Shown: positions 5,187-20,655 of the stretch, piece after piece
Layout of the letters: every line of letters begins with the position of its first letter
How positions within the stretch are numbered: the first letter of the stretch is position 1
DNA from: a bacterium
GTDB taxonomy: Bacteria > CSSED10-310 > JAJRTK01
Length of the DNA: 20,655 bases
Assembly: GCA_024278345.1 (NCBI GenBank)
Contig: JAJRTK010000058.1
Coordinates: forward strand, 1-20,655
Direction of reading: 5' to 3'
Notes under the pieces: model-generated
What the model was told of the DNA's origin: nothing
Databases searched by the model: none
Seen by the model: the letters and a program-made list of their open reading frames with translations, nothing else
Position numbers and translations under genes: made by a program

Positions 5187-5245
5187 TGGCGAAGCTCAGA
5201 AAACCCAAGGAATCGATGGCCATCAGACGGGCAAGACCAGTATGA
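5186..5245 (+). CDS. Possible 19-residue coupling ORF between transporter and tamB
   Basis: The transporter stop and this ATG share bases (TAATG, 5184-5188), and this frame's TGA (5243-5245) overlaps the tamB ATG at 5242. It would encode a basic peptide (MAKLRKPKESMAIRRARPV). No domain is seen. tamB itself has only a weak ribosome-binding site, so reinitiation through this short frame is a reasonable way to start tamB translation. It may equally be chance in a 55-nt gap. Confidence 0.3.
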   Translation: MAKLRKPKESMAIRRARPV

Positions 5246-8200
5246 CTCCCGATAAGGTGCGGCACAAGGCAAATCCGTGGTGGCGGCTCAGCGATTTCCT
5301 CCTCAATGTCGTTGGAATCGCCACACTCGTTCTCTCCACGCTGTTGCTGGTCCTCCAGTCGCCCACGGTCCAGCGAGAGATCATCGATTTCGCCCTTCGC
5401 ACGGCCGAGGAGGCACTGGAGGTCCGGATCGAAGTAGCACGCTCGGGCTACAACATTTTGGGGCTCGGGGCCAGTTTCGGTGACCTCCGCGTTTCCGACA
5501 AAAGCGGGCAACCGCTCCTGACAGCCAAGGGACTGCGTTTGAGCCTTCCCCTGGGCTCGCTTTGGAGCAAACCGGCGGTCCGCCTCCGCCTCACGCATCC
5601 GGAAATCTGGGTGGAGCAACGGCCGAACGGCACCTGGAACCTGCCGTTCATGGGGGATGCACCGGTCGTGGCGGAGTTCGAAGAAGCGCCAGAGGAGCCC
5701 CTGAACCTTCCTCACCTTCTGGTAGAAAGCCTGGCCATCGACGACTTACAGATTCACTACCGCCAGGAAGGAATCGAGCTCACCACCCGAAACACGGAGT
5801 TCGAAGGGCGAATCGAGCTTCCGGAGCTCACGGGAAGGTTGAAGCTCATGCTCCCGGCCGTGGAAATGAAGATGGAGGAGCAAACGTTCCGCCTCGAACC
5901 GACGAAACTGGAGGCAAAATTCACCGAAGGACGAGGCAGCATCAGGCTGGACACCGGCTTCGGCGGCATTGGACTCACCGCCGACGGCCAAGTGGAGTCA
6001 ATCCTGGATCTGCGGTCTCTGGAGTTGAGGGCCAGCCTTCTCTTGGAAGGCGCCTCCGCCCTGGCAAAGAGGTTGTCCATGCCTTTGGCCGGAAAAGTGA
6101 CCCTCAAGGCCAAGGGAACAGGATCGTGGAGATCCATGGAACTTGCGGCCCGTGTCTCGTTCCACCTGCTCCTTGACGAAAAACCGCTGCCGAACCTGCT
6201 TTTCTTCGCCAAGACCCAAACATCCCAGCCTCGTGCCGACCTGGGCTTGGAGCTTCAGACCAAAAATCTGGGCCAGGCGCGAGTTGAGGCCCGGGTGGAA
6301 TGGGAAAAAGGCCATTGGGAAGCCACCGGAGAGCTTCGAGAGCTGGATCTGTCGGAACTTGCCAGGGCTTTTTCCGAGCTCCCACTGCTGCCGGCCTTCA
6401 TCCCTCTGAATGGGCGGATAGAGGCCAAGGGGATCGGTGGCGACATCGGGACGCTTCAGGCCTCGGGAAAGATCTCCACTGGTGCCGAGATCCAGCCGGA
6501 GCTTCTGGCTGCTTTGTTGGGGCGCGAGGCTGTCAGCCCAGACGGGAAGGTCATGGACAAACCGGCGAGTCAGAGTGCGGAACAGGAGGAAGTGGCGGCG
6601 GACCTTCCCCAGCTCGAACCCCGGGCGGTCCTGGCTTTCGCGCTGGAAAGGGGGCGACTGGAGATCCGGGAGTTGCGGGTTTCGGAGAGCGCCGCGGCGG
6701 TTGTGGTATCGGGGAAGGTGATGCCCGATCTTTCGGTCAACTTGGACTTTTCGGGAAAGATCCAGGATTTGGGCCGCTATGGCGCTATCTTCGGACAGGA
6801 GATGGCCGGAAAGCTGGACTTTTCGGGCAGGCTCAGCGGCGGCGCCGAAGATCCCGGGGTGCAGCTTGAGGCAACGCTGCGGGAGGCCATGGTCTCTGGA
6901 GCCCCGCTGGAACTTGCGGCCACGCTGGCATTGGCGGATGGGATCTTGACCTCCAAAAAGCTCGAAATTGCGGCGGCGGATTGCCGGGTGGCCGCGGACA
7001 TTCGCCTCGGGGTTCGCGAATTGCTGCTGGGCGTCACCAGGGGCGCCGGGCGCATCAATCTCGATTCGATGGAATGCGGAGGCACGCGCCTTGGAGGAGG
7101 CGAAATCATCTATGAGCTTGCGCCGGACCAGCTTTCCGTCACCGCCAGCTTGCTCGACGGGGATCTTGCGGGAAACGCCGCCCTTGACCTGCCGCCTACG
7201 CTGGCGACGGCGGAAGTGGCGGGACGCCTGGATCTCGAGAGCTACAGGGAGCTCCTTGGCCTCCAGCCGGAACAAGAGCTCTCGGGCAGGCTGGAGCTCC
7301 AAGGCTCGGCTCGCTACCTCTTTCCCTCGGCGGAAGAACCGGACGGCAGTCTGGACGCCAATGGCGAAATCAAGAAGTTCTGGGCCAGGACCGGGGGACT
7401 GGACATCGGCCTGGCAAGCCCGGCTCGCCTGGACTTCTCCCCCGACGGACGCATCCTTCTAAGAAAGACGACTCTGGCAATCGAGGAATCCCCCCTATCA
7501 GGCGATGGGCCAAAACCTTCCGAGCCCAAGAGAAAGGCACCCGTGGACATGCCATCGTTCGCGGATGCGGATCGGCTGTGGCTGTCTGCTGTTTTTCAGC
7601 CCGAGAATGCTGCCGTCGAGGCTCGATTGTCAGGCGGCCTCCGCCTTCGTCAGCTGAGGGCTTTCCTTGATTTCCCGGAGCTGAGTGGCCTGGCCAAGGT
7701 GGAGATTGCTGTTTCGGGAAACCTGGAGGCTCCCGAGATTCAGGGAACCGCCGAGATCCTAGATCTGGTGCCGGGCCCTCTGGAGGCCGGCTCGATCCAG
7801 ATGAAGATTCCTCTGGTGCCCCGGGGAACGGCAAAACTGGAGCTCGCCCTTTTCCCCCAAAGCCCAACCGCGGAATCCGGACTCTTGGGAAAAATCTCCG
7901 CCAGTCTTGACATCAAGGGCCTTCAACTCGAGGGACAGCCCTTCGGAGACTCCATGGTCAGCGCCTTCATGGACCCGAAAACCGGAGGACTGGGCGCCAC
8001 GGGGATCTTTCTGGACAACCAGGTGCGAGGCTCTCTCTTCATCACGGACGGGACTCTTGACGCCAAGCTCGAGGCTGAGAACCTGGATCTCGGGCCTCTT
8101 CTCCTAGCTGGCGGTTTCCCCAAGGAGGGAACGGACGGCCAGATGGGCTTCGACATTGCGGTGGCTGTACCTCTCAGTGCGCCGGAGAAGCTCACGGGAC

Positions 8201-10440
8201 GACTACACCTCCGAAGCTGGAGTTGCCGGATCGCCGGTCTGCCGCTGGATCTGGAGTTGGCAAGCGATATCGAGATCCAGCCTGGCCCACGCATCCTTTT
8301 GGAGGGCCTGGACCTGGTCATGGGAGATCCCGAAGCACATCTCACGGCCGACCGGGGACAGAGCGAAACCCCCTCCGGCAGCGCCGGGGCCAAGGGTCGC
8401 GCAGGCCGATTCCACCTTCTGGGCGACGTCGATCTCGGGCGGGGGACCTCGAACCTCTCTTTCGCGTCCAGCCTGGACTTAGCAAAGCTGCGGCCACTGG
8501 CCATCTCTGATCTGTCGGGCAGCCTTGGCAGCGAAATCTTGGTGACGGGCCCCTTGGAAGCCCCAATCCTTGAGGGTTACCTCTCCATCTCTGGCTTCGC
8601 CGGAGGCGGATTCGAGGCGGACAAGATCAGCCTGGAGTTCATCCCCCGCGCCGAGGGACCGGAAAAATCAGCGATCTTTGACGCGACTCTCCAGGTCTTG
8701 GGTCTTTCCAGCTCCGGCTATGCCATGGGCGACACTTTCGCCCGGGCATCGGTGGCGGAAGATGGATTTGAGATTCGGGGACGGGCGCTGAATGACCAGG
8801 TGGAGCTCTTTATGGAGTGGCCATTCGACGAGGCGTCCCGGGCAAAGCTGACTTTCCAGACCCGTTCGCTGGTTCTCGACCCGTTTCTGGAGATGGCCGA
8901 TCTTGAAACAGCCCATCCCCCCAAGGGCTTTTTTTCTTCCAAGGGGACTTTTTTTCTTCCGGTGGCCGAACCGATGGCTCTGGACGGCTGGGTCGATCTT
9001 GAACACCTGGAGATGAAGTTCGATGCCTTGACCGTGGCGCTGAAACGCAAAAGCCGCGTCGAGCTAAAAGAGGGGATCGCCCTTCTCCAAGATCTTCGAC
9101 TCGAAACAGAGAATTCCTTTTTCACCGTCGCGGGAACAGCCGGTGCGGAGACCTTGGATCTGCGGACTCAAGGCGAATTCCAGCTTCGGGAGATCCAGCC
9201 TTTCTTGGCATCCATGGCTGCTATCTCGGGGGAAATCACCTGGGAGATCGCCCTCACCGGCCCCCCCACCGCGCCCAGGCTGGACGGGAGAGTGCGGATG
9301 GAGAAGATCGCGGCAACAACGGCGGAACCGGAGGTGACTCTCAAGAACCTCCGAGGCACTCTGGAGGCCAGAGGCACCCACATCCGCCTCGAAGCAATCA
9401 AGGCGGAGTTAGGAAAAGGCCTGGTCACCGTTAGCGGATCCATCGGCCTGGACGATCCCTTCAACCCCACGGCGAACATCGGCATGAACCTCAACGACGC
9501 CCGGATTGAGATCGACGAATACGACGCCGACCTCCTCCTAGACGGTGATTTAGAGTACCGTGGACCGCTGCTCGCCGGGAACCTCACGGGAGAGCTCGAG
9601 CTGCTGGATCTGCGGTACGCTCCCGACCTCAACCCGCTGGAGATCCTGAGCTCCTTGACCTCGAAAGTCAGAACGGTCACTCCGTACACCATCCAGCTCG
9701 AAGATCTCCCCCTCCACGCCGTAGATCAAACGCTGGAGGCGGAACCGGAGCTCAATTTGACCCTGGTGGCGCGAGCCGGTTCCATCGTCGTCGATTCGAG
9801 TCTCGCTGGTGCCACCGCCGAAGCCGAGCTCCAGATTACCGGGACTCCCACATCTCCCGGCATCCTTGGAGCGGTGAAGATCACCAGCGGATTCATCGAC
9901 TTTTACAAGGCGAAATTCGACAACCTCCGCGGATCCATCCTCTTCGAAGGCGATCCCTTCGCCCTCGACCCAAGCCTCAACCTCCAAGGAGAAACAGAAA
10001 AAGATGGCGAGCTCATCATACTGGCCATCCTAGGCAAAGCCTCGGGCCCCCAACTGGACCTCCAATCGAGCTCCAACAAAAGCCAGGCCGACATCGTCCT
10101 CCTCCTCACTCGCTCCCAGTCGGGAAAGAGCAAGTCTCCGGAAGAAATCCTCAAGGGCGCCGCCATTTCCCAGGCCAGCAGCTTCGCCTCCAGCAAGCTA
10201 TCAAGCGCCACCGGCCTCGATGTCCGCCTCGTTCCACCACCCCAAAACGGGAAATCCCTCCTCCTTTCCATAGGAAAACAGATATCAGACGCACTTGCCT
10301 TCACCTTCTACATGACCGAAAGACCCGAAGACCCCGACATCTACGAGGTCAAGTTCCAAGCCAGCGAAGCCGTGAGCCTCGAAGCCCAACGCTCTGATTC
10401 CACGACCCTGCGCCTGCGCTACCGAAAAAAGTTTGACTGA
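5242..10440 (+). CDS. tamB: TamB-like translocation and assembly module / bridge-like lipid-transfer protein
   Basis: 1732 residues. One membrane anchor near the N-terminus (about residues 15-38, LLNVVGIATLVLSTLLLVL) is followed by a very long beta-rich periplasmic region with AsmA-like repeats, and then a C-terminal DUF490/TamB domain (roughly the last 350 residues, ending in the basic and aromatic YRKKFD). TamB is tethered in the inner membrane and spans the periplasm; it works with an Omp85 partner in barrel-protein insertion and is thought to carry phospholipids along a hydrophobic groove. It is longer than the E. coli protein (about 1260 residues). The only in-frame start is the ATG at 5242, with a poor ribosome-binding site. 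The partner barrel gene starts 14 nt after its stop. A GGGC-T7 / GGGGAC-T7 repeat sits inside at about 8923-8960. Confidence 0.92.
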   Translation: MTPDKVRHKANPWWRLSDFLLNVVGIATLVLSTLLLVLQSPTVQREIIDFALRTAEEALEVRIEVARSGYNILGLGASFGDLRVSDKSGQPLLTAKGLRLSLPLGSLWSKPAVRLRLTHPEIWVEQRPNGTWNLPFMGDAPVVAEFEEAPEEPLNLPHLLVESLAIDDLQIHYRQEGIELTTRNTEFEGRIELPELTGRLKLMLPAVEMKMEEQTFRLEPTKLEAKFTEGRGSIRLDTGFGGIGLTADGQVESILDLRSLELRASLLLEGASALAKRLSMPLAGKVTLKAKGTGSWRSMELAARVSFHLLLDEKPLPNLLFFAKTQTSQPRADLGLELQTKNLGQARVEARVEWEKGHWEATGELRELDLSELARAFSELPLLPAFIPLNGRIEAKGIGGDIGTLQASGKISTGAEIQPELLAALLGREAVSPDGKVMDKPASQSAEQEEVAADLPQLEPRAVLAFALERGRLEIRELRVSESAAAVVVSGKVMPDLSVNLDFSGKIQDLGRYGAIFGQEMAGKLDFSGRLSGGAEDPGVQLEATLREAMVSGAPLELAATLALADGILTSKKLEIAAADCRVAADIRLGVRELLLGVTRGAGRINLDSMECGGTRLGGGEIIYELAPDQLSVTASLLDGDLAGNAALDLPPTLATAEVAGRLDLESYRELLGLQPEQELSGRLELQGSARYLFPSAEEPDGSLDANGEIKKFWARTGGLDIGLASPARLDFSPDGRILLRKTTLAIEESPLSGDGPKPSEPKRKAPVDMPSFADADRLWLSAVFQPENAAVEARLSGGLRLRQLRAFLDFPELSGLAKVEIAVSGNLEAPEIQGTAEILDLVPGPLEAGSIQMKIPLVPRGTAKLELALFPQSPTAESGLLGKISASLDIKGLQLEGQPFGDSMVSAFMDPKTGGLGATGIFLDNQVRGSLFITDGTLDAKLEAENLDLGPLLLAGGFPKEGTDGQMGFDIAVAVPLSAPEKLTGRLHLRSWSCRIAGLPLDLELASDIEIQPGPRILLEGLDLVMGDPEAHLTADRGQSETPSGSAGAKGRAGRFHLLGDVDLGRGTSNLSFASSLDLAKLRPLAISDLSGSLGSEILVTGPLEAPILEGYLSISGFAGGGFEADKISLEFIPRAEGPEKSAIFDATLQVLGLSSSGYAMGDTFARASVAEDGFEIRGRALNDQVELFMEWPFDEASRAKLTFQTRSLVLDPFLEMADLETAHPPKGFFSSKGTFFLPVAEPMALDGWVDLEHLEMKFDALTVALKRKSRVELKEGIALLQDLRLETENSFFTVAGTAGAETLDLRTQGEFQLREIQPFLASMAAISGEITWEIALTGPPTAPRLDGRVRMEKIAATTAEPEVTLKNLRGTLEARGTHIRLEAIKAELGKGLVTVSGSIGLDDPFNPTANIGMNLNDARIEIDEYDADLLLDGDLEYRGPLLAGNLTGELELLDLRYAPDLNPLEILSSLTSKVRTVTPYTIQLEDLPLHAVDQTLEAEPELNLTLVARAGSIVVDSSLAGATAEAELQITGTPTSPGILGAVKITSGFIDFYKAKFDNLRGSILFEGDPFALDPSLNLQGETEKDGELIILAILGKASGPQLDLQSSSNKSQADIVLLLTRSQSGKSKSPEEILKGAAISQASSFASSKLSSATGLDVRLVPPPQNGKSLLLSIGKQISDALAFTFYMTERPEDPDIYEVKFQASEAVSLEAQRSDSTTLRLRYRKKFD
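8923..8960 (+). repeat. Imperfect direct repeat with two T7 tracts inside tamB
   Basis: AAGGGCTTTTTTTCTTCC (8923-8940) is followed directly by a near copy with two extra bases (8941-8960). A C6 run precedes it. It encodes the segment KGFFSSKGTFFLP. Such tracts are prone to strand slippage, though the reading frame here is intact. Confidence 0.85.
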
Positions 10441-10454
10441 GAACGCGAATTGAG

Positions 10455-13367
10455 ATGATGGTTGTGTTCCGCTCACATCGGGCGCCGTCCGGCACCCGCT
10501 CCTCGCCAAGATCCGCCGCCAGGCCGCGGCGACACCCGCGCTTCCGGATAGCCGACGGGCTCCTTGGCGGATTCGTTGCCCTCTGGATTCTCTGCCCCAT
10601 GACAGGAACCGCTTTCCCTGCATCCCAGAAAGAAACCCGTGAAGCCAAGGCCACTTCCACCGGTCAAATCACCGGCCATCTCAAGCCGCCATCCTCCCCC
10701 GTCACCGAAATCTTGGCTCGACCGTCACTCTTCGGGCGGTGGGAGCTGGCGCAACTCCTAGAGTTCGAGCCCGGCACCATCATCGACGAAGAGACCCTGC
10801 GCCTCACCGCTGAAAACCTTCTTGCAACAGACCGCGTCCTTGGGGTGGACGTGGCGTGGGAGACGGTCCCCGGCGGCATGCGGCTACTCCTGGAATTGAA
10901 GCCTCAACCCTACGTCAAGAAGATCGGAATCACGGGAAACCACGGGGTCTCCAAAGCCAAGGTCCGAAGCTGGCTGACTCTTCGTTACTATGAAAAACTC
11001 GACCCCAAGGTGCTGAACAAGGCGGTCACCGCCCTGGCCGATCGATACGAGCAAAATGGCTTCAGACGCCCCAGCGTTCGGATCTCGGCCCACCCAATCG
11101 GGCAAGATGGCGCCCACGAGCTCAAGATCCGGATCACCGAGGATCCCCTCCCCAAACTGGAGGGCGGACTAGCCTTCAAGGGCTTGCCCGATTCTCTGGG
11201 CTGGCAGGAAAGGCTCTGGCTGAACTGGCGCTTGTACCGAGGCCATCTTTTTGGGGCGCCGCGACTGAACAAAGCCCACTGGAACCGCCATATCGGGAAG
11301 GCCGTGAGGTATTTGAAGAAGATCGGCTATCCCGATGCCACGGGCGCCTGGAAGGCCGAAGAAAAACCAAGCGCTCCCGGCAAGAAACAGTTGATCCTAG
11401 AGATCGACGCCGGTCGCCGGACCCTCGTCGTGGCGTCCGGTGAAAAGCCTGTAAAAAAGCTCCGCGGCCTCTTCCGGAAGGAGAAGTTCGGCCTTTCGGC
11501 GCGGGAGCTGGACCGGTTTCTTCGGAAATCCTATAAACTATTGAAAAAACAAGGTTTGGCAGGCGGGCAGGTGAGCGCGAAGATCGAGGATGGAGCCCCG
11601 GCTCGGACCCTTCGAATCCGGCTGGACGGGGGCCGGCAAACGACGGTTCGGGAGATCAGGTTTTCCGGAAACGACTCGATCCCCACCTGGGAGCTCCTTG
11701 GTGCCATGCTTACCCGCCGGAAGGGTTGGATACCCTTCGTCAAAAGACCTTTTCGCCAAAGCGTGTTGAACGATGATCTCGAGGCCGTCAAGACCCTCTA
11801 CGCCCTCCGAGGCTTCCCGGCAGCCAAGATCGAGCCGGAAGTGATCATCGATGAGAAAGGCGACGTACAGATCCTTCTTCGGATCGAAGAGGGCCGGCAC
11901 CACCGGGTGGGAGAAATCAAGTTCAAGGGCCAGAAAATGCTCTCGGAGCAAGACCTAAGAGAGCTCGCCGAAGAAACGGGACTGGTTCCAGGCACCGATC
12001 TTTCCAGGGAGATCATCGGCCTGGCGGCACGGACCATCAGCCTTGACTATTTCAAGAAGGGCCATCCCAATGCCACCATCCAGATCCGATCCGACAACCG
12101 GAAGGGAGAAGAGATGGACCTGCTCTTCACCATCGACGAAAAGAGGGAGCAGCGGGCGGGAAAACTCATCGCCAAGGGGAACTACAAGACCTCCACGGCC
12201 CTGATGTTCAAAAGATTCGGCTGGGAGCCCGAAGCGCTCCTCGATTCGGCGAAGGTCGCCAAGCTCCGGAAATATCTCACGGACGTCGGCATCTTCGACT
12301 CGGTGCTCGTGGAAACGGTCCACGGAGCCGATGGGCGCACCGACGTCGTGGCACGGGTCCGGGAACGGCGGTCGGGAAGACTTGATTTAAGCCTGATCTA
12401 CGATACCACCGACAGCTTCGGTGGAGAGGGACTGCTCAGCCACGAAAACCTCTTCGGCCACGCACTGAAGGCCGAAGCCAGGGCACGGGCTCAACTGAAC
12501 TACTACGAGCTGGGAGCGGCCCTGCGGAAGTCCACCTTCTTCGGCTACCGAATCCCCGTTTCCCTCGACGCCACCCTCAGCCGGGATTCCTCCAACCCAA
12601 GTTTCGACCAGCGGCGACTGGGAATCGAATTGAGCGCCGCGAAAATCCTGGCACACCATCTCCGCACCACCATACGAGCAAAATTCGAAGAGATCTCCAT
12701 CGACGCCAGCCAACAGTCGGACGATCTCCCGGAACCGGGGCGCATCGTCTCCATTTCGCCGGCCCTGATCTGGGACCGGCGAGACCAACTGGTCGATCCG
12801 CGCAAGGGGGGGGTGGCCTCGATACAGTTTTCCCTGGCCACCGACATCCTGGGCGGGCAGGAGGAATTCTGGAAGCTCGACCTCGAGTCTCGCCACTATT
12901 TCGCCCTCGGGGAACGGTGGACGCTGGCCGTGGCGGCCCGCGGCGGGATCGCACGGCCCACGGGCACGACATCAGCCCTTCCCCTGAGCGAGCGCTACTT
13001 TTTGGGAGGTAGCGCCACCCACCGCGCCTTCTCTCACGACAGATTGGGACCACGGGACAAAAACGGAATCCTCGTCGGAGGCGACTCCTTTCTTCTCCTC
13101 AATGGCGAGCTCAGGTTTCCCCTTTGGGGTGACCTTTACTGCGGCCTGTTTGTGGACGCGGGCAATGCTTTTGGCTTCGGGGAAAGTTTTTCACTCCGCC
13201 CCGGCCTCGGCATTGGACTGCGTTACATGACCATCGTCGGCCCCGTCCGCTTCGATGTGGGCTGGAACCCGATGCGCCGTTCCCTTGTGCAAGATCCGAC
13301 CGGTCAAACCGGCGATGCCCTAGAGGACCGGTTGACCTTTCACATCGCGCTGGGTCACGCATTCTGA
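10455..13367 (+). CDS. Omp85-family outer-membrane assembly protein (TamA/BamA-like) with many POTRA domains
   Basis: 970 residues. A long basic leader (about 33 residues, Arg-rich) precedes a hydrophobic core (GLLGGFVALWILC) and a probable cleavage site near TAFPA. Several POTRA-like repeats follow to about residue 640, with clear starts at VKKIGITGNHGVSKAKV, VREIRFSGNDSIPTWEL and VGEIKFKGQKMLSEQDL; I count about six or seven, against three in TamA and five in BamA. The rest is a 16-strand-type barrel with RYFLGGSATHRAF in the loop-6 position, GPVRFDVGWNP near the end and a terminal Phe. The loop-6 motif is normally R-G-F/Y; here the Gly is Ala, while the key Arg is kept. Position 14 nt behind tamB argues for the Tam partner; true bamA cannot be excluded. 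The start ATG at 10455 has no strong ribosome-binding site. Confidence 0.88.
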   Translation: MMVVFRSHRAPSGTRSSPRSAARPRRHPRFRIADGLLGGFVALWILCPMTGTAFPASQKETREAKATSTGQITGHLKPPSSPVTEILARPSLFGRWELAQLLEFEPGTIIDEETLRLTAENLLATDRVLGVDVAWETVPGGMRLLLELKPQPYVKKIGITGNHGVSKAKVRSWLTLRYYEKLDPKVLNKAVTALADRYEQNGFRRPSVRISAHPIGQDGAHELKIRITEDPLPKLEGGLAFKGLPDSLGWQERLWLNWRLYRGHLFGAPRLNKAHWNRHIGKAVRYLKKIGYPDATGAWKAEEKPSAPGKKQLILEIDAGRRTLVVASGEKPVKKLRGLFRKEKFGLSARELDRFLRKSYKLLKKQGLAGGQVSAKIEDGAPARTLRIRLDGGRQTTVREIRFSGNDSIPTWELLGAMLTRRKGWIPFVKRPFRQSVLNDDLEAVKTLYALRGFPAAKIEPEVIIDEKGDVQILLRIEEGRHHRVGEIKFKGQKMLSEQDLRELAEETGLVPGTDLSREIIGLAARTISLDYFKKGHPNATIQIRSDNRKGEEMDLLFTIDEKREQRAGKLIAKGNYKTSTALMFKRFGWEPEALLDSAKVAKLRKYLTDVGIFDSVLVETVHGADGRTDVVARVRERRSGRLDLSLIYDTTDSFGGEGLLSHENLFGHALKAEARARAQLNYYELGAALRKSTFFGYRIPVSLDATLSRDSSNPSFDQRRLGIELSAAKILAHHLRTTIRAKFEEISIDASQQSDDLPEPGRIVSISPALIWDRRDQLVDPRKGGVASIQFSLATDILGGQEEFWKLDLESRHYFALGERWTLAVAARGGIARPTGTTSALPLSERYFLGGSATHRAFSHDRLGPRDKNGILVGGDSFLLLNGELRFPLWGDLYCGLFVDAGNAFGFGESFSLRPGLGIGLRYMTIVGPVRFDVGWNPMRRSLVQDPTGQTGDALEDRLTFHIALGHAF
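12806..12813 (+). repeat. G8 homopolymer within the Omp85 barrel coding region
   Basis: Eight consecutive G residues encode part of the segment DPRKGGVASIQF, about residue 784. A change of one base would shift the frame and remove the last part of the barrel. Poly-G runs in surface-protein genes are typical sites of slipped-strand phase variation. Confidence 0.9.
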
Positions 13368-13673: not shown

Positions 13674-16172
13674 ATGGTTGTTTATGGCGATTTCAGCAAC
13701 ATGATGCTCCCGGATGCTCTGTCGATGCTCCGGCGAAAAGCGGCAACAGGGGTGCTGAGCTGCCAACGCAACAACGTCCTCAAGCAGATCACCCTTTTTG
13801 CGGGCTCCGTGGTTGCGGCAACGTCCAATCAACCTGAGGAACGGATCGGCCGCCACCTCATCCGCAGGGGCCTTCTGACGGAGGAGCAATTCCATAAGAC
13901 TCTCCGGGCCCAGGCCGGGCTGGGCGCTAAGTTTGGCGAGCTTCTTCTGCGCACGGGAGAGCTGGACGCCATGTCTCTTGCGGACGAACTTTCCAAACAG
14001 GCCGAAAATCTTCTGTGCGGCACCTTCTCTTGGACGTCGGGACAGTTTCACTTTGAAGAGCGGCCCCTGGAAATTGCGCCGAGCCACCCAGTTTGGCTGG
14101 AGATCGACGACCTCATTTTCCGTGGGATTCTGAACGAAGGCATCCCTCTGGCAGATGAAATCCAGGAGGATTCCGAGGTCATCAAAAGCTCTCGGGCCAC
14201 TCTGAGCGCAGCTCCACTGAACGCGGAAGTGATTCTCCTTCTCCAAAAGCTCGACACGCATCGGAGCGTGGCGCAACTGCAGAGCCAGATATCTCTGTCC
14301 AAGGAACGTCTTCGCCGATTGTTGGCAGCCTTGGACGTCCTTGGGATCATAGAGCTTCCCGTGCGTGGCGATAAACCTGTCTGCATCGCTGATATCGTTG
14401 GCTTCTACCGCACGGCCTTTCGCACGATCTTCCTCCACGCCGACACACGAACCGGCACTGAGGGACTTTTGGCCTTCTGGGAAAGCTGGCGAAAAACCAT
14501 CGCATCGACGGCCTCGGATCACAGCGAAGAAGTCCATGCCCTCCGGGTATCAGTCGGTCTTGGCACTTTGCCGAACAAACGGCCCGAAATCGAAATCGAT
14601 CCGGAGGGCGGGCTCCAGATCTTGGAGGCCAAGATCTGGAACAGCCAGACCGACCCCCGTGCCATCGAGGCACTCCGCTCGTTTCTTGAGTCGGCTATCC
14701 TTCAAATTCTAACGGGTTTTCGAAAAAGTTTTGGGATTGATTACCTGACCTCCATGACAAAAAATCTGGAGTTGTGCGCCGAGCTCATCCTGAAACGGAA
14801 CGCCAAACTGGAAGAAATCGTCCTTCCCCGGTGGGCCCGCTTGTTGGAAATGGCTTTCCAAGCGGGCTCTACGGCTCAGCATCCGATAGAAGAACCCACT
14901 CCACTCCCGGACCCGATACCAAAGGCTGCGGCCCTGGATTCACCGGCTTCTCCGTGGAAGCCAACGGACCGCCTCTCGCCGCTTGTCCCTGAAGAGAATG
15001 ATGGAAGCACCATGAATCGACCCAAAGGGAAGAGTCCTGAAGAAAAGGAGGAGCCCATTTCAGAAAACCGGATGGATCACCAGGCTTTCGGCTCCTGGAT
15101 GGATCTCATCGAAGCTTCGGAAACCGCCATCAACGCGCCACCCACAAAATCGGACGAAGTCCGGGATCCCGCCAAGCCGCAATGGGAACGCCCCATCCTT
15201 GTCCACGACCTGGAGAGTCTTGCGGTTCAGGAGCGAAAGCGACGGGCTGAGGCACTTTTCAAGGAGGGCCTCTTGGAGGCAAGCCTCCACCACTACGCCG
15301 AGGCGGCGGATACCTGGAAAGCTTGTCTCTCCGTCGATCCCGATTACCCTGAAGCCGCCCAACGCCTGAAAGAAGCCCGGGAAAAGACTCGGGAGTCCCA
15401 AGATCTGGAGAAAGCGCTGGCCAAATGTCAAAGCATGCTGGAGAAGGACCATCTGACGGAGATGCTCCGAATCGCGGCAGATATCCTCCACAAGGACCCC
15501 CACAATTCCAGCGTACCAAAACTTTTGACGAAGGCCCAAGCGAAGCTCTCCATCGATCCAGGCAAGTTCAAGGAACCCGGTTTCTCTGGGCCAAATGCCG
15601 CAAAAGAGCTCGAAAATCTGCGGATTGCCGCACTTCTGGCCGCCGCCGGTGACGAGATGGCCGAATCCCGCCTCGAAGCAGCCAAGCTCCACTTCGAAGA
15701 AGTTCTGAGACTCGAACCGGGAAACGAAACAGCCACCAAGGAACTAGAAGAAACAGAAAAAAGACTGGAAACCGAAGCCAAGATCGGGCAACTCTTAGGA
15801 AACGCCTATTTTTTCCAGCAACAGCAAAAGCTCCAAGAATCCTGCGGAGCACTGGAAGAAGTTCTGGCCCTCGATCCCGAGCGGCCAGGCGTCCTTGAGC
15901 TCTTCCAGCACGTGCAGGCCAGCATCTCTGACCTTCCTTACAAGGCTGTGGGAGGTGGCAGATGCAAACCGTACCTCCGCCGGGATCTCGCCAACCTCAA
16001 AGACTATCCCCTCACGGCGGATGAATCTTTCCTTCTGACCCAAATCGACGGAGCCACCGACATCCGCTCTCTAGCCGTCATCACCGGACTGGGAAAACCC
16101 GCCACCTCCAGGATTCTACTCTCCCTTGCCAAACGCGGCCTCATCGCCCTACCCACACCCAGAAAAAAGTGA
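13674..16172 (+). CDS. DUF4388 (PATAN-like)-TPR protein with a C-terminal winged-helix-like segment
   Basis: 832 residues, no signal peptide or membrane segment, so cytoplasmic. Residues about 4-140 match the DUF4388/PATAN pattern (GDFSNMMLPDALSMLRRK, then TGVLSCQRN, and GTFSWTSGQFHFE). A charged, Pro-rich linker near 395-515 leads to TPR-like helix pairs at about 517-565, 593-627, 648-695 and 706-750 (for example HYAEAADTWKACLSVDPDY). The last 55 residues (TADESFLLTQIDGATDIRSL, then KPATSRILLSLAKRGLI) resemble a small winged-helix module. PATAN domains sit in response-regulator and gliding-motility proteins and mediate protein interactions; the exact role here is unknown. The ATG at 13674 has GGGA 6 nt or so upstream. 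The gene converges with the MlaF-like gene. DUF4388, TPR and J-domains commonly occur together in such lineages, which may link it to the J-protein at 17153-18157. Confidence 0.75.
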   Translation: MVVYGDFSNMMLPDALSMLRRKAATGVLSCQRNNVLKQITLFAGSVVAATSNQPEERIGRHLIRRGLLTEEQFHKTLRAQAGLGAKFGELLLRTGELDAMSLADELSKQAENLLCGTFSWTSGQFHFEERPLEIAPSHPVWLEIDDLIFRGILNEGIPLADEIQEDSEVIKSSRATLSAAPLNAEVILLLQKLDTHRSVAQLQSQISLSKERLRRLLAALDVLGIIELPVRGDKPVCIADIVGFYRTAFRTIFLHADTRTGTEGLLAFWESWRKTIASTASDHSEEVHALRVSVGLGTLPNKRPEIEIDPEGGLQILEAKIWNSQTDPRAIEALRSFLESAILQILTGFRKSFGIDYLTSMTKNLELCAELILKRNAKLEEIVLPRWARLLEMAFQAGSTAQHPIEEPTPLPDPIPKAAALDSPASPWKPTDRLSPLVPEENDGSTMNRPKGKSPEEKEEPISENRMDHQAFGSWMDLIEASETAINAPPTKSDEVRDPAKPQWERPILVHDLESLAVQERKRRAEALFKEGLLEASLHHYAEAADTWKACLSVDPDYPEAAQRLKEAREKTRESQDLEKALAKCQSMLEKDHLTEMLRIAADILHKDPHNSSVPKLLTKAQAKLSIDPGKFKEPGFSGPNAAKELENLRIAALLAAAGDEMAESRLEAAKLHFEEVLRLEPGNETATKELEETEKRLETEAKIGQLLGNAYFFQQQQKLQESCGALEEVLALDPERPGVLELFQHVQASISDLPYKAVGGGRCKPYLRRDLANLKDYPLTADESFLLTQIDGATDIRSLAVITGLGKPATSRILLSLAKRGLIALPTPRKK

Positions 16173-17152: not shown

Positions 17153-18157
17153 TCATCGGTTGATCAGCTTCCGTAACCCCTTGAGCACGCTGTGCTTGAT
17201 GTCGCTTCCGAAGTCGCTCAACCCGTCCAAGATCCCCTTCCCTACACCGCCGCCGCCATCATCATCTCCCAGCCCCCACGACGCCCGGTCCATGGAGACC
17301 CGATCCCAAAGGCCCCGGGTCTCCACTTCGACCTCCAATTTCTTCCGAAGAAGCTCGACGCTTTTTGAGCTGTTTCGCGCAAGCAGCCAAAGTGCCTTGG
17401 TATTTCCCTTGCCGTCGTAATGAGCGCTCTTTGCCGCATTCAGCAGCGCCTCCCTCGCCGAGGCAAGGAGCAGCTTCTCATCCAACTCGCTCCAATTCCT
17501 CTGGGCCGAGGCCTCCAAGACCAGGTACACCGCCTCCAGGAAATACTCGATCTTCGCCTTATCATAGCGGCGCTGGGCATAACTTAGTTCGGCCTGCAAG
17601 TTGTAGCTGCTGGACAACCGGCGATTCTCAAGCTCATATCGGCGCGCCTCCTTGGGCGCAACTCCCGTCCCTTCCAAGACCGACCAGAGAATCGACAGGG
17701 CCCTCTCCAGCTTCCCATCGATCTCCGATGGGGAAACCGTCTTCTCGTACTGCTCCATCTCACGCATGAAGGCCTGGTCCCGCTTTCGCCCCACTCCACG
17801 CTTCCAAAAGCGGTCTTCCGCCGCTGGCCGGGGCCTGGCCCGGCTGGGGCCTCCCCGCTTGTCGCGATAGGTCGCCGGATCGTAGCGTTCATTCTCCGAA
17901 AAAAATTGCTTGAACAAGTTGAAGGCGTTGAAAACCTCTTTCTGCCGCTCCTCCATCGACGACTGATTGTCCGGATTCCTGTCCGGGTGGTAAATGAGCG
18001 CCAACTTGCGGAACGCTTTCTTCATCTTGGCCTCATCGATGGGACCACGGAACATCAGCTTCCGCATACCATTCTTCTTGAGGTGGACATTGAAAACGTC
18101 GTAAGCCTCTCGAAGCTCTTCAGCCGTCGGATCAGAAAAACCGTATTTTTTTGCCAT
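17153..18157 (-). CDS. Atypical J-domain (DnaJ-like) protein
   Basis: 334 residues, cytoplasmic. The ATG at 18157 follows a strong GGAGGGA site three bases away; the frame stays open far upstream, but that part translates spacer and the next gene. Residues about 38-95 form a J-domain with the key HPD at 57-59 (KLALIYHPDRNPDN), preceded by an unusual 40-residue N-terminal region. There is no Gly/Phe region, zinc finger or CTD of a class A/B DnaJ. The middle is helical and highly charged; a Gly/Asp-rich linker (LGDDDGGGGVGKG) leads to a basic, amphipathic tail ending in LRKLINR that could bind a membrane or a partner. It should stimulate an Hsp70; no DnaK or GrpE gene is near. Codons 2-4 contain an A7 run right after the start. 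Confidence 0.75.
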   Translation of the reverse strand: MAKKYGFSDPTAEELREAYDVFNVHLKKNGMRKLMFRGPIDEAKMKKAFRKLALIYHPDRNPDNQSSMEERQKEVFNAFNLFKQFFSENERYDPATYRDKRGGPSRARPRPAAEDRFWKRGVGRKRDQAFMREMEQYEKTVSPSEIDGKLERALSILWSVLEGTGVAPKEARRYELENRRLSSSYNLQAELSYAQRRYDKAKIEYFLEAVYLVLEASAQRNWSELDEKLLLASAREALLNAAKSAHYDGKGNTKALWLLARNSSKSVELLRKKLEVEVETRGLWDRVSMDRASWGLGDDDGGGGVGKGILDGLSDFGSDIKHSVLKGLRKLINR

Positions 18158-18190
18158 GGCTCCCTCCGTCGAGCCCACCCGAATCGTTGC

Positions 18191-18214
18191 CACCAAAAAG
18201 TGGTGACAGCCACC
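18191..18214 (-). promoter_or_regulatory. Overlapping inverted repeats upstream of the J-protein gene
   Basis: On the plus strand CACCA (18191-18195) pairs with TGGTG (18201-18205), while GGTG (18202-18205) also pairs with CACC (18211-18214). GCCACC occurs on both sides (18189-18194 and 18209-18214), so the two hairpins compete for the same central bases. It lies 34-57 nt before the J-protein start and just downstream of a possible promoter, so it may be an operator rather than an RNA switch. Confidence 0.35.
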
Positions 18215-18217
18215 TTG

Positions 18218-18247
18218 ATTATCCCCCGTTGGGAACCCCAAGGGCAA
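18218..18247 (-). promoter_or_regulatory. Possible sigma70-type promoter for the J-protein gene
   Basis: On the minus strand a -10-like GATAAT (18218-18223, five of six consensus bases) is preceded by TTGCCC (18242-18247, three of six) with an 18-nt spacer containing the palindrome TTGGG-GTT-CCCAA. It lies in the gap between the upstream glycosyltransferase stop and the J-protein start. It would give the J-protein and ATPase genes their own transcript. Confidence 0.4.
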
Positions 18248-18263
18248 GCTCCCACCCCAATCT

Positions 18264-19883
18264 TCACTTCTCTCCGGGTTGGATTCCGCGTGCGTCAGCG
18301 TCCGTCCGGCCACCGCCGCTCGCCCTTCTTCGCCCTTCTCCAGAGTCTCGCGACACGGCGAAGAATACCGCATAAGGACCCGCCCGAGCCACCGGCAAAA
18401 ACCCCATTCTCCGCAAAGCTCGAACCCCGATGGGTAACTCAGGTTCTGGCACAACCACCCGCACTCTCCTCTTCCGGACTGCATCCACGGCTTCGGGAAG
18501 CCACGTGGCATTGGCGATCCCCAGAGTCTGGGCAAAACTCCCCCTTGGAGTCTTGAAAACCCACTCCAACAGCCGGCCCTGTTGGTGCGCCCAGCGCAAC
18601 TGCCGGGTGAATCCAAGGGTGTCGATATAACTGAAACTCTTGATCCGATCCGCCTCCAACGCAATCAAAGGCGGGCAAATCAAGGCCCGAGACCCCCGTG
18701 GAACCAGTTCCGCCACCACGCTCCCCAAGCGCCGCAGTTCCGCGCGGCGAATGCCCGAAAGACCCATCCGATAAAGGGGCGCCTTCCAAACCTGAACCCC
18801 GAGAACCACCAGACCGAGGACCGCCGCGATCCAGGCAAGACGGCGGTTTGCAGCCTCAGCCGCTACACCCCCCGCCAGCAGCACCATGGGCGCCTGGAGA
18901 GGAATCATGTAGTGAGGCCAAAAGGTCGAACTCAAACCCAGAGAAAAAATCAGCTCGAAGCCAAGCCAAAAAAGCGGAAACAACACCGCCGGGCGCCGCC
19001 TGAAGACCCACAACCCCCAAAGGGTCATGGGCAACAGAGGTCCCACTTCCCAAAAAAGCCGCGGCAAGCGGCTTGCCAAGGGGACAGGCGACCCCTTGAT
19101 GAAATGGAGCAGGAAACTCTGCAAGATGAGCTCGGGGCCGAATTGCCCATACGCAACGGCCAGAAGCCCCAAAATCGAGAAAGCGCTGGAAACCGACAAG
19201 ACCAGAGCACGCCTCCATTCCCTGAGCCCGCAAAGGTAGGCAATGGAAGCCAAACAAGGGAAAAGCCCACCCTGCTTGAACTGGAAGGCGATGCCAAACA
19301 GCAACCCGGCAAGGACCGTGGCTGCCCACGAAGACGCCAAGTTGAACTCTCTCTTCCGCCCAGCCACCAAAAACGCCATGCCCACCAAGGCCGCGGCACA
19401 AGAAAAGACCTCGCGCTCAAACAAGTGGTACCGGAATCCCAACGGCAGCCAAGCCCAGAAAAGAGCCGCCAACGCCCCCGCATTCCAGCCAAAGAACCGG
19501 CTCCCCAAAAACCAGATCGCCAGCGAGCCTGCAAACATCGCCAGCGACGAAAGAAACTCCCCCACGCGGTGGCTCGGGCCGAACCACCGGAAAAAAGGCG
19601 CGGCCGCTTGCTCCAAGAGAGGCGGATTCGCCTGAACGAAATCCCGGTAAGGCATCTCTCCCCGGGAGATCAAATAAGCGCTGTACAGATAATTGTCATC
19701 CTCGATCCAAACCGACGGCCAAAGCGCGCGCCCCACGCGAGGCGCCAAAAGAAGAAAGAGAATCACCACGCACCAGCCGCTCCGCGTCACGCTTCTCTGG
19801 CCGCGCTCATGGGCAATTCCGCGTACGACGCCATTCTGGACACCGTTCGGCTTTATCCCCGGCCCTCCCCGGTCCCCGTTCAC
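18264..19883 (-). CDS. GT-C-type membrane glycosyltransferase (PMT_2/ArnT-like)
   Basis: 539 residues with about ten to twelve hydrophobic segments; the first is near residues 36-52 (WCVVILFLLLAPRVG). The first outside loop has WIEDDNYLYSAYLI and then RGEMPYRDF, matching the acidic donor-binding loop of family-39/83-like enzymes. A soluble tail of about 130 residues closes the protein. It would use a polyprenyl-linked sugar at the outer face of the inner membrane; the acceptor is unknown. The GTG start at 19883 overlaps the TGA of the RpiB-like gene (GTGA) with GAGG close upstream, so translation is probably coupled. The similar acidic-loop layout in the protein at 460-2583 suggests distant homology. 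Confidence 0.78.
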   Translation of the reverse strand: MNGDRGGPGIKPNGVQNGVVRGIAHERGQRSVTRSGWCVVILFLLLAPRVGRALWPSVWIEDDNYLYSAYLISRGEMPYRDFVQANPPLLEQAAAPFFRWFGPSHRVGEFLSSLAMFAGSLAIWFLGSRFFGWNAGALAALFWAWLPLGFRYHLFEREVFSCAAALVGMAFLVAGRKREFNLASSWAATVLAGLLFGIAFQFKQGGLFPCLASIAYLCGLREWRRALVLSVSSAFSILGLLAVAYGQFGPELILQSFLLHFIKGSPVPLASRLPRLFWEVGPLLPMTLWGLWVFRRRPAVLFPLFWLGFELIFSLGLSSTFWPHYMIPLQAPMVLLAGGVAAEAANRRLAWIAAVLGLVVLGVQVWKAPLYRMGLSGIRRAELRRLGSVVAELVPRGSRALICPPLIALEADRIKSFSYIDTLGFTRQLRWAHQQGRLLEWVFKTPRGSFAQTLGIANATWLPEAVDAVRKRRVRVVVPEPELPIGVRALRRMGFLPVARAGPYAVFFAVSRDSGEGRRRASGGGRTDADARGIQPGEK

Positions 19884-20655
19884 TCAGCCTCGACGAGCCT
19901 GAGCCCGATCCCGGCGGCTGTTTCCCTGGCCTGCTGCGTGACAAGTGTCCCCTTGGGGAGCACCAGCGGCCGCGTTCTATCGGCATCAAGAACATCCCTT
20001 TCCGATAGAACCAGCCGCCGCGACGCCTCGGCTCCACCGAAGATCTGGAGACTGCCCTCAGCGCCAACCGCGCCCACGCAACTCGCCGGTTTCGCCTTGG
20101 GAAGAGTGGACGGCGCGTTGCCCATCCAGCCTGCTGGAGCCCGGCCATCCGCCCCGGCACCGTGCTTGGGAGCTGGGCCATCCACCTCTTGGAGAACGAC
20201 CCGCAAAACTCGCTCCACCAGGGCCTGCACCGAGCCGGCACCCAAACCTGCGGACTCGAGCTCCATAATCTTGTCCACCCGCCGCTGGTGCCGGCCTCCG
20301 GCTGGTGGAGTCTCCAGGAAAACCCGCAATATACCGCTGGCGACTCCCATCCCCACCACTTGCGATCCCAGGCACAAGAGGTTCGCGTGATTGTGTTCTC
20401 GTGCGTTCCGAGCCGTGAAAAGATCGTTGCACACGGCGGCGCGAATACCGGGAATCTTGTTCGCCGCCATGCCGCTCCCCACACCCGCGCCATCGATCAT
20501 TAAGCCCAGGGAATCTTCGAGCTTTAAGACCTCGTGAGCTACTTTTCGGGCGATGTCCGGATAATCCACGGAGTCAGCGGTGTGGCAACCCACATCCCTC
20601 ACCTCGTATCCCCACTCCTGGGCAACGCCCTTCAGAACTTCCTTGAGTTCGAACC
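19880..20655 (-). CDS. RpiB/LacAB-family sugar-phosphate isomerase-like protein with C-terminal extension (5' end missing)
   Basis: The frame runs off the right edge; the visible part starts FELKEVLKGVAQEWGYEV, so roughly the first 12-15 residues are missing. Family landmarks follow: DYPDIA, MAANKIPGIRAAVC, TARNAREHNHANLL (the His of E. coli RpiB position 98) and GGRHQRRVDKI (phosphate-binding Arg). The active-site loop that reads CGTGVG in E. coli RpiB reads DGAGVG, so catalytic Cys65 is Asp (codon 20492-20494) and Thr67 is Ala. About 100 extra residues follow the isomerase domain, ending in LVLPKGTLVTQQARETA and a short tail; an ITP-x-AR-like motif of this kind recurs in microcompartment-associated proteins. 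Its stop overlaps the glycosyltransferase start by 4 nt. It may be a modified isomerase or a non-catalytic relative. Confidence 0.85.
   Translation of the reverse strand, partial: FELKEVLKGVAQEWGYEVRDVGCHTADSVDYPDIARKVAHEVLKLEDSLGLMIDGAGVGSGMAANKIPGIRAAVCNDLFTARNAREHNHANLLCLGSQVVGMGVASGILRVFLETPPAGGRHQRRVDKIMELESAGLGAGSVQALVERVLRVVLQEVDGPAPKHGAGADGRAPAGWMGNAPSTLPKAKPASCVGAVGAEGSLQIFGGAEASRRLVLSERDVLDADRTRPLVLPKGTLVTQQARETAAGIGLRLVEAE

Follow-up and report, generated by a model that had tools for sequence, protein, structure and literature searches.

Results

An RpiB-family gene at the contig edge

The stretch of DNA analysed here (the window; 20,655 nucleotides) is the whole of contig C525, and its right end holds a gene of the RpiB/LacAB family followed on the same strand by a membrane glycosyltransferase gene. 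The features of this region are given below; catalytic residues carry the numbers of E. coli RpiB.

18264..19883, minus strand: PMT_2-type membrane glycosyltransferase; its GTG start overlaps the TGA stop of the RpiB gene (GTGA, 2-3 nt)
19880-20653, minus strand: RpiB/LacAB-family ORF, 5' end cut, open at the right contig edge
20252..20653, minus strand: RpiB/LacAB domain, residues 1-134 of the visible ORF (PF02502, Foldseek, AF2)
20474..20494, minus strand: loop DGAGVGS, with Asp at the position of Cys66, Ala at that of Thr68 and Ser at 72 (alignment)
20378..20401, minus strand: REHNHANL, retaining the ring-opening His99 and Asn100 (alignment)
20279..20299, minus strand: GGRHQRR, retaining the phosphate-binding Arg133 and Arg137, and also His134 (alignment)
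20183..20242, minus strand: encapsulation-peptide-like amphipathic helix GAGSVQALVERVLRVVLQEV, residues 138-157 (profile score, AF2)
20021..20182, minus strand: flexible linker, probably disordered, residues 158-211 (AF2 pLDDT <50 for 154-216)
19883..20020, minus strand: EutT/EutQ/PduM-like C-terminal module RRLVLSERDV...GTLVTQQARETAAGIGLRLVEAE, a proposed shell-docking element (hhalign)

The Pfam family LacAB_rpiB (PF02502) covers residues 1-129 of the ORF (E 1e-43; 149 bits against a cut-off of 24.7), while the N-terminally cut ORF scored 135.0 bits with TIGR01120, under the cut-off of 138.65, and far under the cut-off of TIGR02133. AF2 modelled most of the RpiB domain with pLDDT >90, and the top Foldseek match of the model was C. 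thermocellum RpiB (3he8; E 2e-11), with which the domain shares about 48% identity. The contig edge removes roughly 12-15 residues from the N-terminus, among them those at Asp9 and His10, and no other contig of the same assembly overlaps the end of this one. Because the contig ends here, direct physical linkage of the gene to genes of a bacterial microcompartment (BMC) cannot be demonstrated. A second RpiB in the same genome (contig C184) is ordinary; its loop reads CGSGIG and it has no tail.

The glycosyltransferase and RpiB genes are probably co-transcribed. An earlier note on this DNA had coupled the RpiB protein to the membrane glycosyltransferase; the two genes do overlap, but this coupling is unsupported, because relatives do not retain this neighbour next to the RpiB gene, and we do not consider the glycosyltransferase to be part of the BMC system. 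Elsewhere in the window, positions 5242-13367 hold a 1732-aa ORF, TamB/AsmA-like by eye, and directly after it an Omp85 protein with POTRA domains, together a TamAB-like pair. Positions 13674-16172 encode a DUF4388 (PATAN-like) protein with TPR, and a DUF4388-like phmmer match to it lies just upstream of the Asp-type RpiB gene (see below) of a relative (G001, L056). A DnaJ-domain ORF (17153-18664, minus) overlaps the end region of the glycosyltransferase frame.

A loop with Asp66 and Ser72

We aligned the window protein with the RpiBs of E. coli, C. thermocellum and T. maritima and with LacA and LacB. The classical combination of Cys66 with Thr/Ser68 is absent, since these positions are Asp and Ala, and so is the M. 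tuberculosis-type combination of Glu72 with Ser68, position 72 being Ser. With Ala68 and Ser72, the loop therefore lacks the Cys/Thr pair as well as the actinobacterial Ser/Glu pair, in agreement with the earlier note, which had read the catalytic Cys/Thr as replaced in a DGAGVG loop and the actinobacterial pair as missing. Its observation that the ring-opening His and the phosphate-binding Arg are kept likewise holds, as seen in the REHNHANL and GGRHQRR motifs. The loop is not an artefact of decay, because Asp66, Gly69 and Ser72 are invariant across 20 homologues from many phyla.

A tail with a helix, a linker and a EutQ-like module

After the RpiB domain, the protein continues for about 119 residues. 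The earlier note had described an extension of roughly 100 residues ending in a BMC-like GTLVTQQARE motif; a BMC-like module is present, but the tail is longer and the motif lies about 13 residues ahead of its end. Judged by sequence and model, the tail looks like a two-part targeting device.

The first part, residues 138-157, resembles terminal helices of proteins encoded in the same genome, for example the C-terminal end DDQIRALVEQVLRNMKL of the aldehyde dehydrogenase, and the RpiB helix SVQALVERVLRVV is similar to IRALVEQVLRNM of that enzyme. We built an encapsulation-peptide profile from the helices of the aldehyde dehydrogenase, DeoC and class II aldolase of this genome, together with the DeoC helices of three relatives. 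Among all 10 window proteins, the helix segment of RpiB had the highest score on this profile, and 11 of 5000 shuffled tails scored as well, a clear but not overwhelming result. AF2 placed a helix at 143-156 inside an otherwise disordered stretch. The amphipathic helix and the flexible linker that define an encapsulation peptide are thus both found, by sequence and predicted structure only.

The second part, residues 212-257 (about 45 residues), forms a small predicted domain in AF2 (pLDDT 77-84). We do not take the tail motif to be a chance resemblance, because the tails of relatives match the PduM, EutT, EutQ and TIGR02536 models directly (best E 2e-9) and because the module profile matched, in hhalign, residues 3-47 of both EutT (E 5e-7) and EutQ (E 2.5e-5) from E. 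coli but gave no match with EutE or EutD. The shared 45-residue module, (L/V/I)(I/V)TE..(D)(V/I)...(V)TP.AR, occupies the N-terminus of EutQ and EutT and the C-terminus of PduM, whereas it sits on the C-terminus of an isomerase here and on the N-terminus of RpiBs in other phyla (Chloroflexota, Acidobacteriota). In Salmonella, EutQ attaches to the shell through helices H1/H2 (residues 9-41) and to cargo through H3/H4 (PMC12487888), and by analogy the RpiB module may dock to the shell as this EutQ region does. The order of RpiB domain, helix, linker and module is the same in all five genomes of the phylum with an Asp-type RpiB; the encapsulation-peptide profile score is weak in two of these relatives.

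BMC genes on other contigs of the genome

We searched the assembly (6.06 Mb in 550 contigs, 88% complete) and found one PF00936 (BMC-H) and three PF03319 (BMC-P) shell domains. The BMC-H gene adjoins a gene for DeoC (deoxyribose-phosphate aldolase) on contig C353, the three BMC-P genes adjoin a class II aldolase gene on C428, and C133 encodes an acetylating aldehyde dehydrogenase (TIGR02518 E 1.2e-181, just below the cut-off) with an encapsulation-peptide-like C-terminus, GVTDDQIRALVEQVLRNMKL. DeoC, the class II aldolase and the aldehyde dehydrogenase all bear encapsulation-peptide-like helices similar to the one in the RpiB tail. Shell proteins, an aldolase and an aldehyde dehydrogenase, which the earlier note had suggested might lie just beyond the right edge, are thus encoded in the genome, although on other contigs; the search of this genome, 88% complete, turned up neither PduL, which the note had also suggested, nor BMC-T. 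The two families by which sugar-phosphate-utilising (SPU) BMCs are recognised, a DeoC-type aldolase (pfam01791) and an RpiB-type protein (pfam02502), are both present, in an SPU-like gene set scattered across at least five contigs. The ground for refutation proposed in the earlier note, an absence of BMC genes from the surrounding 20 kb or so, would have been misleading here.

Several other loci carry related features, and two of them, in this genome, encode proteins with the module seen in the RpiB tail. A triosephosphate isomerase with an N-terminal EutQ/EutT-like module is encoded on C121 (L133; 1495-2400, plus) and is apparently BMC-directed. On C546 (L134), an ACT-domain protein (1099-1752, minus) has an N-terminal EutQ/EutT-like module and a DUF711 neighbour (1-1065, minus), a possible unrecognised BMC-linked protein pair. 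The BMC-H and DeoC genes of C353 (L005; 8851-15724) are flanked by a TonB-dependent receptor on one side and a PhoD-like phosphatase with a solute-binding protein on the other, a neighbourhood that would be compatible with uptake of debris from nucleic acids or phosphate esters. A class II aldolase with BMC-H and three BMC-P genes in Acidobacteria (L131; G043:C40) is similar to the C428 locus (L007).

An Asp-type subfamily that tracks BMC shells

An alignment of about 70 RpiB-family sequences contained 20 with Asp66, LacA set aside; we call these the Asp type. Asp66, Gly69 and Ser72 occur in all 20 and Cys66 is gone; Ala68 is found in 17, while two members with a DTTGIAS loop keep Thr68. Nearly every one of them retains Asp9, His10, Tyr43, His99, Asn100, Arg133, His134 and Arg137, and several members have no extension. 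The gene lies within 10 kb of, or is fused to, DeoC and/or shell genes in 13 of the 20, and SPU-type loci with DeoC share the Asp-type loop. A single ORF fuses an Asp-type RpiB to DeoC in L062 (G032:C26; 5172-6611). PduL lies beside an Asp-type RpiB in L012, L013, L026 and G036; the L013 operon, from the cultured Pseudogracilibacillus auburnensis DSM 28556, also encodes an aldehyde dehydrogenase, a triosephosphate isomerase, DeoC and shell proteins.

BMC shells are encoded in every one of the 20 Asp-type genomes, as compared to 1 of the 36 that lack this type. When genomes were selected by kinship only (41 genomes), shells were present in 9/9 with the Asp type and 1/32 others (Fisher 2.9e-8), and within the phylum the counts were 5/5 and 0/3. 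The exception, G030, has a Eut-type locus (EutE, EutJ, EutQ) and no DeoC. Together with the BMC genes of the genome and the SPU/DeoC loci that share the loop, these results bear out the earlier idea of a BMC-associated RpiB variant in which a different residue replaces the catalytic base.

In an RpiB tree computed without the loop columns, 17 of the 20 Asp-type sequences grouped on a single branch with weak support (60/74), and 16 of these grouped at 93/92. A single clade of all 20 was not rejected (AU p 0.40), and a single origin is not proven, because three sequences lie outside that branch. In the relatives G001, G003 and G004 of the same phylum, there is no BMC gene within about 9 kb of the Asp-type gene, and the BMC parts sit on several different contigs, so dispersed BMC genes seem to be normal in this lineage.

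Discussion

SPU loci with an RpiB-family protein (pfam02502), a DeoC-type aldolase (pfam01791), an aldehyde dehydrogenase and sometimes a triosephosphate isomerase are already known (PMC4207490, PMC8217296). RpiB-DeoC fusion has been reported for them (Axen 2014, Sutter 2021; PMC4207490, PMC8217296), PduL is not universal in them (PMC4207490), and they are reported to be among the commonest BMC types, with >280 loci in 26 phyla (PMC8217296). The present gene set is alike in its shell proteins, DeoC-type aldolase, RpiB-family protein and acetylating aldehyde dehydrogenase, and in the triosephosphate isomerase and class II aldolase that sometimes accompany them; it differs in its distribution over at least five contigs and in that PduL was not found. 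In the SPU text searched (PMC4207490, PMC8217296), RpiB is treated as an ordinary ribose-5-phosphate isomerase; the text of Sutter 2021 (PMC8217296) contains neither "cysteine" nor "active site", and "catalytic" once, on another matter.

The window protein shares the fold, His99, Asn100 and Arg133/Arg137 with classical RpiB (E. coli 2vvr, C. thermocellum 3he8), whereas Cys66, Thr68 and Ile or Met72 of the latter are Asp66, Ala68 and Ser72 here, and a tail is added. M. tuberculosis RpiB (2vvo, 2bes) is similar in that a carboxylate is proposed as the base replacing Cys; this Glu, which we take to be position 72 in E. coli numbering, stands with Ser68 (Glu75/Ser71 in the enzyme's own numbering), in contrast to Asp66 with Ser72. 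The base in that enzyme has been described as Glu instead of Cys (PMC4783025). LacA, of the LacAB galactose-6-phosphate isomerase (4lfk), also has Asp at the Cys position, but it is a half-site heteromer subunit, whereas Asp-type proteins keep both halves of the active site in the 19 relatives, Asp9/His10 of the window protein lying beyond the contig edge. The base of LacAB is Cys65 of LacB, and LacA is not the subunit that supplies it (PMC3755991).

We consider it somewhat probable that the window protein is cargo of an SPU-type BMC with dispersed genes and belongs to an Asp-type RpiB subfamily that isomerises its substrate with Asp66 as the base and the hydroxyl of Ser72. At the level of sequence, this reading is supported by the residue pattern, the tail modules, the co-occurrence with shells and the linkage or fusion to DeoC elsewhere; from these we infer the Asp66/Ser72 chemistry, the substrate and the targeting to the organelle. 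Proton transfer between C2 and C1 falls to Cys66 in classical RpiB, residue 68 carries the proton from one of O1 and O2 to the other, and ring opening is the task of His99 (PMC4783025; PMC3755991). The Asp-type domain would bind the furanose form of a pentose 5-phosphate, and the conserved His99 would open the sugar ring; a proton would then be transferred between C1 and C2, with Asp66 taking over from Cys66 as general base and with Ser72 providing the hydroxyl missing at position 68. Asp66 with Ser72 would be a third solution, beside Cys66 with Thr68 and Glu72 with Ser68, in which these three loop positions again hold a carboxylate together with a hydroxyl. The encapsulation-peptide helix would condense RpiB with DeoC, the class II aldolase and the aldehyde dehydrogenase, and the EutQ-like terminal module would attach it to the shell. 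With a class II aldolase and a triosephosphate isomerase in the gene set, the system may act on more than a single sugar phosphate. Classical RpiBs are inactive once the Cys has been mutated to Ser or Ala (PMC4783025), and activity of the Asp type is therefore not to be assumed. More tentatively, the RpiB-family protein of SPU BMCs may form an Asp66/Ser72 subfamily with a reaction or substrate other than that of the ribose-5-phosphate isomerase of known mechanism, for example providing open-chain deoxyribose 5-phosphate for DeoC or isomerising another sugar phosphate.

2-Deoxyribose 5-phosphate has no C2 hydroxyl, which makes the usual enediol isomerisation chemically impossible. This sugar is the main substrate assumed for SPU BMCs, and because the gene is tied to DeoC, fused or adjacent to it in many genomes, ring opening is a serious rival: the Asp-type protein would be no isomerase and would ring-open or mutarotate 2-deoxyribose 5-phosphate (or ribose 5-phosphate), handing the open-chain aldehyde to DeoC inside the compartment. 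The loss of the O1/O2 proton shuttle Thr68 in most members, with His99 kept, agrees with such a role. However, pentose phosphate rings open fast without an enzyme, the two DTTGIAS members retain Thr68, and the strictly conserved acid at the base position together with Ser72 suggests that a base is still needed; we regard this role as unlikely, though worth serious weight. In another reading, the RpiB domain has no catalytic activity and acts as a EutQ-like scaffold or linker joining cargo to shell. Replacement of Cys66 kills classical RpiB and the tail combines a cargo-like helix with a EutQ-like shell module, but near-universal retention of the catalytic residues, with Asp66/Ser72 invariant in 20 sequences, is unexpected in a pseudoenzyme, and several members have no extension at all, so we think a scaffold improbable.

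That the BMC association reflects shared ancestry only, the protein being in this phylum a cytosolic isomerase no longer taken into a compartment, would agree with the distance of the gene from BMC genes in G001, G003 and G004. It is still less probable, given that all five Asp-type genomes of the phylum keep the helix and the EutQ-like module and that DeoC and the aldehyde dehydrogenase are likewise dispersed yet carry encapsulation-peptide-like helices. We give the lowest probability to the Asp-type protein being a heteromer partner of the ordinary Cys-type RpiB of the cell, in the manner of LacA with LacB. Besides the Asp at the Cys66 position of LacA, the presence of a Cys-type RpiB in several Asp-type genomes, including this one (C184), speaks for it; LacA and LacB, however, each lack one half of the active site, and searches of G003 and G036 (each at least 93% complete) yielded no Cys-type copy. 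A LacA-like heteromer is disfavoured as the reason for the Asp, both halves of the active site being kept.

Returning to Asp-type isomerases as BMC cargo, the literature text searched, which covered few subscription journals and preprints, made no mention of a Cys-to-Asp replacement in RpiB and yielded nothing relevant on an experimental test of an SPU RpiB. As far as our tools tell, the Asp66/Ser72 signature and its near-perfect tracking of shell-bearing genomes are new, as are the combination of an encapsulation-peptide-like helix with a EutQ-like module and the dispersed SPU-like gene set of this lineage.

Judged by sequence, the RpiB of SPU BMCs lacks the residue known as essential in classical RpiB, and the fixed pattern that replaces it tracks possession of the organelle. 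Since the Asp variant was found only in genomes encoding shells, a known organelle enzyme may work differently or catalyse a different reaction than has been assumed. The Asp66/Ser72 pattern is a simple marker for SPU-type BMC isomerases, and it finds organelle components in genomes with dispersed genes that locus-based surveys would miss. If the reaction or substrate is different, the assumed pathway of a very widespread BMC type would need revision.
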